From Rhodocyclaceae bacterium (lineage in GTDB: Bacteria > Pseudomonadota > Gammaproteobacteria > Burkholderiales > Rhodocyclaceae), in contig JACAEF010000013.1 in the NCBI GenBank assembly GCA_013388985.1, positions 27,711 through 91,710 of the forward strand: a stretch of 64,000 bases of DNA, in the 5' to 3' direction. Of this stretch, positions 59,269-61,465 are shown piece by piece. Under the pieces are notes generated by a model. That model had not been told where the DNA came from and searched no databases. It saw nothing but the letters and a program-made list of their open reading frames with translations. The position numbers and the translations under genes are program-made. Every line of letters starts with the position of its first letter. Positions within the stretch are counted from its first letter, which is position 1.

Positions 59269-60216
59269 TCAGGCGAAGTGGTCGTAGCCGCGTTGCGTCA
59301 CCTCGACCGGCTGCCCGTGGGCGTCGAAAATCGTGAGCTTGCCTGCGGGCCCGGCTTCGGTCTTGCCGATGCAGGTGAGCGGCAGGTCGAGGCGTTCGGA
59401 CAGGCCGAGAATCGCTGCATGATGCTCCGGCGGTGAGGTGAAGATCAGTTCGTAATCGTCGCCGCCGGAAAGGTAGGCATCGCGCTCCAGGCCGGGCGCC
59501 GGAAGCCGATCGAGATGCAGCGTGGCGGCCAGGCAGGAGGCTTCGAGCAGATGGCCGAGATCGGCCAGCAAGCCGTCGGAGACGTCGATTGCCGCGGAGG
59601 CGATCCCGCGCAGGGCCAGGCCGAGCTCGACCCGTGGTTGCGGGCGGCGCAGGGCGGCGAGGCAGACCGAGAGCGCCGGCTCGGTCAGCGCGATGCGTCC
59701 TTGCAGATGGGCCAGCCCGAGCGCGGCACGGCCGGGCATGCCCGAGACCCAGATTTCCTCGTACAGATGGGCGCCGGAGCGGAGCAGGGCCTGACTCTGC
59801 AGGCCGACGAGCGGTACTTCACCGAAGATCGTGACGCAGAAATTGCGGGGCCCGCGCGTGGTGTCGCCGCCGATGATGTCGATGCCGAAAGCATCGGCGC
59901 AGGCGAACAGGCCGGTGGAGAATTTCTCCAGCCAGTCTTCGTTCGCGGTCGGCAGCGCAGCGGCGATCACGGCCCAGCGCGGCTGGGCGCCCATCGCCGC
60001 GATGTCCGAGACATTGACCGCGAGCGTTTTCCAGCCGAGATCCTCGGGATCGTCGTCGGCAAAGAAATGCGTGCCGGCGACCAGCATGTCGGTGGAGATC
60101 ACCAGCTCGCAGCCGGGACTGGGGCGCACGATGGCGGCATCGTCTCCGACGCCGAGCACGGCGTGGCGCGGCGGGCGACGGAAGTAGCGGTCGATCAGGG
60201 CGAATTCGGAAGGCAT
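59269..60216 (-). CDS. thiL: Thiamine-monophosphate kinase
   Basis: GVGDDAAIVRPSPGCELVISTDMLVAGTHF. Confidence 0.95.
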   Translation of the reverse strand: MPSEFALIDRYFRRPPRHAVLGVGDDAAIVRPSPGCELVISTDMLVAGTHFFADDDPEDLGWKTLAVNVSDIAAMGAQPRWAVIAAALPTANEDWLEKFSTGLFACADAFGIDIIGGDTTRGPRNFCVTIFGEVPLVGLQSQALLRSGAHLYEEIWVSGMPGRAALGLAHLQGRIALTEPALSVCLAALRRPQPRVELGLALRGIASAAIDVSDGLLADLGHLLEASCLAATLHLDRLPAPGLERDAYLSGGDDYELIFTSPPEHHAAILGLSERLDLPLTCIGKTEAGPAGKLTIFDAHGQPVEVTQRGYDHFA

Positions 60217-60228
60217 GCGAACAGTATA

Positions 60229-60381
60229 TTATCGAAACCCCTGCGAAACTTGCTGCACGGCCGGTCTGCTGTGTTGCGCGGTGCTCGGATGCTCGCCTAT
60301 CGACTGGATATGTCTCGCATCCTGCGCTCCGTGCGCCTTGCATCCCATCCCGCTCGCGGCGTTTCGCGGGGGTTTCTTATC
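60229..60381. mobile_element. MITE-like element: 143 bp (60234-60376), 16-bp terminal inverted repeats, TTATC target duplication
   Basis: GAAACCCCTGCGAAAC vs GTTTCGCGGGGGTTTC (15/16), flanked by TTATC at 60229-60233 and 60377-60381. Confidence 0.75.
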
Positions 60382-60467
60382 GTGAATGGCGCGGCATGCG
60401 CCGAAGGCGCAAGGTGCTCACTACGATAGACGCCCGTAATCCTTGAGCGCCGCATAAGCGACGCGAG

Positions 60468-60962
60468 CTATTTGGAGCCCTCCGCAAGGGGAGTGAAGGG
60501 GAGCGGGCTTTCGTGGGGGCGGAGTTGCGGCGCCAGCTTGTCGAGCACGCCATTGACGAATTTGTGGCCATCGGTACCGCCGAAGGACTTGGCCAGTTCG
60601 ATCGCCTCGTTGATGACCACCCGCCACGGCGTCTCGGGATGGTCGCGGAGCTCGCAGGCTGCCAAAAGCAGGATGCTGCGCTCGATCGGCGACACCTCGT
60701 CCCAGCTGCGTGCGATATGAGGTTCGAGCAGGGCGCGCAGCGCCTGCTGGTCGTCGAGCACGCCGGAGAGCAGGCTGTCGTAGAGCGGGCGGTGCGCCTT
60801 CTCGAAACCGGCGACCGATTCGGCCTGGGCGACGATCGCGGCATGGTCCTGACCGCCGACCAGATGCTGGTAGAGGCCCTGCACCACGAACTCGCGCGCG
60901 CGGTGGCGCGGGCTGGCCGGTGCCTTCCTGGGTCTCTCGCCGTGCAGTTTTTCGGCGCTCAC
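60468..60962 (-). CDS. nusB: Transcription antitermination factor NusB (GTG start)
   Basis: [49 protein letters not shown]. Confidence 0.94.
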
Positions 60963-61465
60963 TTCAGCGCTTTCATCAGATTGGCCATCTCGACCGCGCA
61001 TTGCGCCGCCTCGGTACCTTTCTGGATCATCCGCACCTGTGCCTGCGCCTCGTTCTCGACGGTGAGGATCGCGTTGGCGATCGGGATGCCGGTGGCGAGC
61101 TGCACGTCGGTGACGCCGCGCGAGGACTCGTTCGAGACGACCTCGAAATGATAGGTCTCGCCGCGGATCACGCAGCCGATGGCCACCAGCGCATCGAACC
61201 TGCCGGTCTGCGCCAGGGTCTGCAAGGCGAGCGGAATTTCCAGCGCCCCCGGGACGGTGATGAGCGTGACATCGGCGACGCCGAGGCGGCGCAGCTAATG
61301 GCAGCAGCCGGAGAGCAGGCCTTCGCCGACGTCCTTGTTGAAGCGCGCCATCACGATGCCGATGGAAAGGCCAGCACCGGCGAGGTTGGGTTCGATCTCG
61401 GCCAGGTCGGCGCAGCGGGCCGTGGCGGGAGAGGAAGTGGGGGCCGGATTCGGTGTGAAGCTCAT
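60959..61465 (-). pseudogene. ribH: 6,7-dimethyl-8-ribityllumazine synthase with an internal in-frame TAG at 61295-61297
   Basis: [50 protein letters not shown]; same frame on both sides. Confidence 0.9.

Follow-up and report, generated by a model that had tools for sequence, protein, structure and literature searches.

A MITE between nusB and thiL of a Rhodocyclaceae bacterium with a conserved hairpin core that was very probably moved by several transposases

A MITE is commonly taken to be what a deletion has left of one insertion sequence (IS), after which it is named. In prokaryotes, type II MITEs are similar to their IS in the terminal inverted repeats (TIRs) only (MITEAba12, PMC6382973). 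QMITE1 and QMITE2 of Coxiella and Chunjie of Geobacter are also type II MITEs (reviewed in PMC10969869). MITEAba12 has one TIR pair, 9-bp target-site duplications (TSDs), a distribution within one bacterial family, and a weak predicted structure of -24 to -27 kcal/mol (PMC6382973). REPs, which are 20-40 bp long (PMC3733652), and REPINs are dispersed intergenic palindromes under structural constraint.

The element described here lies between nusB and thiL. It resembles type II MITEs in being short, non-coding, bounded by TIRs, and flanked by TSDs, with many intergenic copies and with TIRs that match a co-resident IS where one was found (the T4 class, below). Unlike MITEAba12, its family combines a covarying core with five or more TIR types and with TSDs of several lengths, mainly in two proteobacterial classes. 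The copies share dispersal and structural constraint with REPs and REPINs, but they are about 143 bp long and carry TIRs and fixed-length TSDs, which are a sign of transposition by a staggered double-strand cut. A REP or REPIN moved by a RAYT is expected to have no TSD, and the duplications present contradict this. A literature search returned no description of the family. A structured core with interchangeable ends, spread mainly over two proteobacterial classes, is unusual for bacterial mini-transposons. On its own, the nusB-thiL copy is an ordinary MITE; it is the family as a whole that is more unusual. The insert is very probably a MITE with a conserved hairpin core that has been moved by several transposases.

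The window, the whole 64,000-nt stretch of DNA analysed, holds the element at 60234-60376 (143 bp). The thiL start codon (ATG at 60216, minus strand) lies on one side of it and the nusB stop codon (60468) on the other. The features of the locus are the following:

59269-60216, minus strand: thiL, downstream of the insertion; an open reading frame (ORF) that adjoins nusB without the insert in relatives
60229-60233, no strand: left TSD, TTATC; from the sequence, with a 5-bp TSD signal class-wide
60234-60249, plus strand: left TIR of the T1 class, GAAACCCCTGCGAAAC; from the sequence, with the same TIR in copies of the window's own genome and of G017, a genome of the same genus
60250-60360, plus strand: structured hairpin core, common to copies with other TIRs; from copy comparison and covariation
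60292-60317, plus strand: apical hairpin CTCGCCTATC-GACTG-GATATGTCTCG; nearly invariant unpaired positions and one strongly covarying pair
60361-60376, minus strand: right TIR of the T1 class, GTTTCGCGGGGGTTTC, with one mismatch to the left TIR; from the sequence
60377-60381, no strand: right TSD, TTATC; from the sequence
60468-61001, minus strand: nusB, upstream of the insertion; an ORF, identified by its own sequence and by its place beside thiL in relatives

The preliminary description had reported a 143-bp segment with near-perfect 16-bp inverted repeats and an exact TTATC duplication, and the sequence confirms all three. The 16-bp TIRs are 94% complementary, with a single T/C mismatch. 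The 111 nt between them contain no transposase gene and no gene-like ORF, and the ORFs that overlap the element are mechanical only, without evidence of being genes. The whole element folds as one long hairpin on either strand and is about six standard deviations more stable than shuffled sequence. About 90 extra bases that are missing in relatives lie beside the MITE, at 60382-60520 of the window. NusB of the window genome has a 16-residue C-terminal ending that replaces the PHEATTK of the relatives; this tail has weak DNA matches elsewhere in the own genome (G000) and in G017 and is perhaps another repeat.

A DNA search of the own genome with the 163-bp region gave 43 matches, the best other one at E = 7.5e-50, which excludes chance. 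Trained on 48 copies, a covariance model detects 61 in this genome and, in the same genus, 56 in G017, 47 in G002, 20 in G006, 9 in G005, and 1 each in G004 and G009. By this model, the element is present in 6 of 18 other genomes of the genus, and 12 have none. G006 matches a record of Rhodocyclaceae bacterium SKW65 at 100% over 3.1 kb, which places the genus in the Rhodocyclaceae. In the two nearest relatives (ThiL 89% identity), the nusB-thiL gap measures about a dozen bases and the site is empty; the TAATAT bases of this gap stand on the thiL side of the insert in the window genome. The insert is missing at nusB-thiL in every same-genus genome with a readable junction. When flanks are compared with G017, about 15 other own-genome copies are missing there and about three are at the same place. 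These empty and shared sites indicate that insertion was repeated and, for many copies, later than the split of these species. Thus, the further genome copies and the empty sites that the preliminary description had asked for both exist, the latter in the two nearest relatives at this locus and at the other loci compared with G017. Its reading of the segment as a nonautonomous transposon gains support from the dispersed copies, the TSDs, and the empty sites. In two Pseudomonas genomes, a divergent copy (L105 and L131) lies beside apparently the same gene end, and some copies such as these may be old and kept in place.

A non-autonomous DNA transposon very probably inserted at TTATC between nusB and thiL after the split from the closest sampled relatives. 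A transposase acting in trans would have recognised the GAAACCYCTGC ends and, judging from the TSD, made a 5-bp staggered cut. The interior is a conserved covarying hairpin, not leftover transposase sequence, and this hairpin has very probably been moved by several transposases, including one or more from the IS5 family.

Copies were classed by their terminal repeats, and exact duplications were counted against left and right flanks paired from different copies. In T1, the class of the window copy (GAAACCYCTGC; TIR also as GAAACCYCTGCSNAAC), the 5-bp duplication is exact in 11 of 20 cases, with 0.05 expected. T2 (GGAAACRCTGAWT) has a 4-bp duplication, mostly YTAR, in 34 of 61 (7.1 expected, a value this high because the target itself is conserved), and T4 (CAGGCYGTTGAAAAAC) has a 4-bp YTAR duplication in 8 of 13 (2.3 expected). 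T5 (GGGCACCTCKAAAAACC) shows a 4-bp duplication other than YTAR in 5 of 6, where 0.0 are expected. T3 (GAGCTTGTGAAAA), with a 3-bp duplication that is mostly TNA in 14 of 25 versus 7.2 expected, is the weakest class, its excess being twofold. The length of a duplication is a property of the transposase. Since TSD length and target vary by TIR class, several different cutting enzymes are implied. In most classes the elements are 142-146 bp long, so that length hardly varies, and distant genera have TIR types in common. The T1 end is loosely similar to the T2 and T4 ends, and intermediate ends are seen, such as GGAAGCTTTGCATAAGTT and GAAACCTCTGCCTAAC. These intermediate TIRs suggest that the ends may have been altered stepwise with pairing kept, not in one swap.

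In G017, as read from the table, YTAR and TNA targets appear often to coincide with stop codons, and many copies appear to lie within a few bases of a gene 3' end. At many copies there, the start is within a few bases of a stop codon, and the YTAR or TGA duplication overlaps that codon. Insertion at a stop codon or gene 3' end would spare the gene. The same genome has miniature palindromes of about 50-80 bp, with little beyond two T2 or T3 TIR arms, at C1:320087, 1744966, and 2149606.

A hairpin core of about 110 nt is common to copies across the TIR classes. At least five TIR types flank it, and their TSDs measure 5, 4 (YTAR), 4 (YTAR), 4 (other), and 3 (TNA) bp. The occurrence of one hairpin between at least five TIR types, each with its own TSD, points to several transposases having moved the core. 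Close pairs of copies with different ends are known: L012 (T2, own genome) and L041 (T1, G017) are identical at 104 of 108 core positions, and L009 (T2) and L008 (T1), both from the own genome, at 101 of 108. The cores of the different-ended copies compared are 94-96% identical. On the core tree, the TIR class changes about 33 times versus 53 with shuffled labels, a rough number in which labels are simple patterns and 31 of 106 copies are unclassified.

Among 106 aligned copies, 94.0% of cells pair versus 81.6% after shuffling, a control that leaves relatedness in place. Double changes occur in 23 of 30 pairs, compared with 8-14 in slid controls, and amount to 371 cells against a shuffled mean of 101 and 22-72 in slid controls; this alignment (A2) was fitted to the model, and its pair counts lean towards the model. 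A structure-free MAFFT alignment already has double changes in 17 of 30 pairs, and parsimony on the core tree counts 144 double changes from one standard pair to another. In the apical motif many positions do not vary, an invariance exaggerated by the use of the motif itself to collect part of the copies. The structure of the core appears to be under selection. An orientation bias relative to genes would have been a sign of RNA function; none was found, which speaks against a role tied to the host transcript. In the plus reading, wobble intermediates comprise 50 A-C versus 26 G-T events (p = 0.008, with mutation bias uncontrolled). The A-C excess would favour the minus strand as the paired RNA and is suggestive only, whereas two nearly invariant G-U positions point the opposite way.

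An autonomous partner was found for the T4 class, as a 1,323-bp element in G017 and a 1,320-bp element in G002, both of which end in T4 repeats and have YTAR-type flanks. In G017 the transposase, 352 aa long, scores 318.6 bits against the IS5-family model (cut-off 140) and is 94% identical to a protein annotated as ISDisp1-family. The G002 element is adjoined by a T4 MITE. T4 copies resemble the IS5 family (ISDisp1-like) in having the TIR CAGGCYGTTGAAAAA and the YTAR duplications of these two elements, and the terminal repeat is all that the IS5-family elements and the MITEs have in common in the sequence compared. Another genome, G066, shows a burst of T4 copies that hardly differ from one another and have YTAR duplications; it yielded no DDE_Tnp_1 gene. 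Several many-copy genomes are without any DDE_Tnp_1 transposase, and the window genome has none. A full transposon with the same ends as the window copy, which the preliminary description had proposed to look for, did not emerge from the own genome, searched by TIR pattern, from 2.42 of 2.74 Mb (88%) of G017, or from the loci collected. Unlike the case of the IS5 family and T4, no IS has so far matched the T1 ends with their 5-bp duplication. Thus, mobilisation in trans, which we infer for the element, is unproven for T1. Possibly the T1 enzyme was lost, is encoded in unsampled sequence, or belongs to another family. A 1.45-kb T3-ended element in G017 (C1:1956259-1957709, L367) was considered as an autonomous partner and rejected, its protein being IS110-like by eye; this element is probably inserted inside a T3-ended hairpin copy.

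Beyond the genus, a scan for the exact apical pattern, with stem position and loop left free, matched 31 of the order's 399 genomes, from 17 of 158 genera, and the reversed control pattern gave no match. In named genomes, the apical pattern occurs in at least 116 stretches. Exact matches to the core lie in more than 100 contigs, mostly of Beta- and Gammaproteobacteria. Among the matches listed are Nitrosomonas, Gallionella, Sideroxydans, Accumulibacter, Tepidiphilus, Halomonas, Modicisalibacter, Salinicola, Kushneria, Pseudomonas, Halothiobacillus, and others. A few of the records listed are labelled Geobacter, Nitrospirae, or Deltaproteobacteria, and these need care as many are MAGs. The core was found in 1 plasmid record of 72,556 and in 1 of 2.9 million viral contigs; it is common in chromosomes and nearly absent from the plasmid and viral collections. 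A scan of the viral contigs for T1 ends matched 17 contigs.

The alternative named in the preliminary description was a local structured RNA, which would have no other copies and a repeat conserved in place; neither is found here. A structured RNA or attenuator that regulates thiL would fit a strong sense-strand hairpin (-68.3 kcal/mol, z = -6.0) that sits in an operon. However, the site is empty in all readable same-genus junctions and dozens of copies occur elsewhere, which refutes this explanation as the primary origin. No T-run follows the sense-strand hairpin at the locus, and Rfam, searched up to E = 1 at the window locus, gave nothing there, nor anything for the element at six other loci. 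An immobile regulator is therefore extremely improbable. Another explanation needs a single transposase that recognises the core and cuts at a fixed distance, so that the ends drift freely while pairing. The near-constant element length and the many-copy genomes devoid of DDE_Tnp_1 transposases are consistent with such an enzyme. Yet variation of TSD length and target among the TIR classes calls for different cutting enzymes, and both the recurrence of TIR types in distant genera and the match of T4 ends to an IS5-family element count further against it, making it quite improbable.

The element could also be an ordinary MITE whose core is a historical passenger, its paired changes arising from arm-to-arm quasipalindrome correction and not from structural selection. 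In its favour, perfect palindromes readily undergo such correction, short palindromic derivatives are known, and the copies are oriented without bias relative to genes. Mismatches should disappear under correction, yet the core keeps its internal mismatches and unpaired positions unchanged across genera, and a passenger leaves unexplained why one core has several kinds of ends; this account is rather unlikely. For the MITE moved by several transposases, a tentative extension, to which we give somewhat less than even confidence, is that its core is a selected structured nucleic-acid module that spreads via the TIRs of available IS5-like transposases, using several mobilisers. Such a module might act as RNA or as single-stranded DNA and serve either the element or its host.

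In this family, one folded core is retained across mainly two proteobacterial classes, whereas the ends vary, and the duplication length with them. This means either that the interior is under selection for some property or that the elements trade ends by a route undescribed in the literature searched. With the structure, the covarying pairs, the close copy pairs with different ends, and one identified transposase in hand, both options are testable. The family would also explain intergenic hairpins that lack annotation in Nitrosomonas, Gallionella, Accumulibacter, Halomonas, and related genomes. Some copies have a second, unrelated-looking palindromic segment (GGCCGCTTCGCTTAAC...GTTTTCGCTC) in the left arm (L272, L273, and L277 of G066; L253 and L257 of G017), and it occupies the same place in these two different genera.
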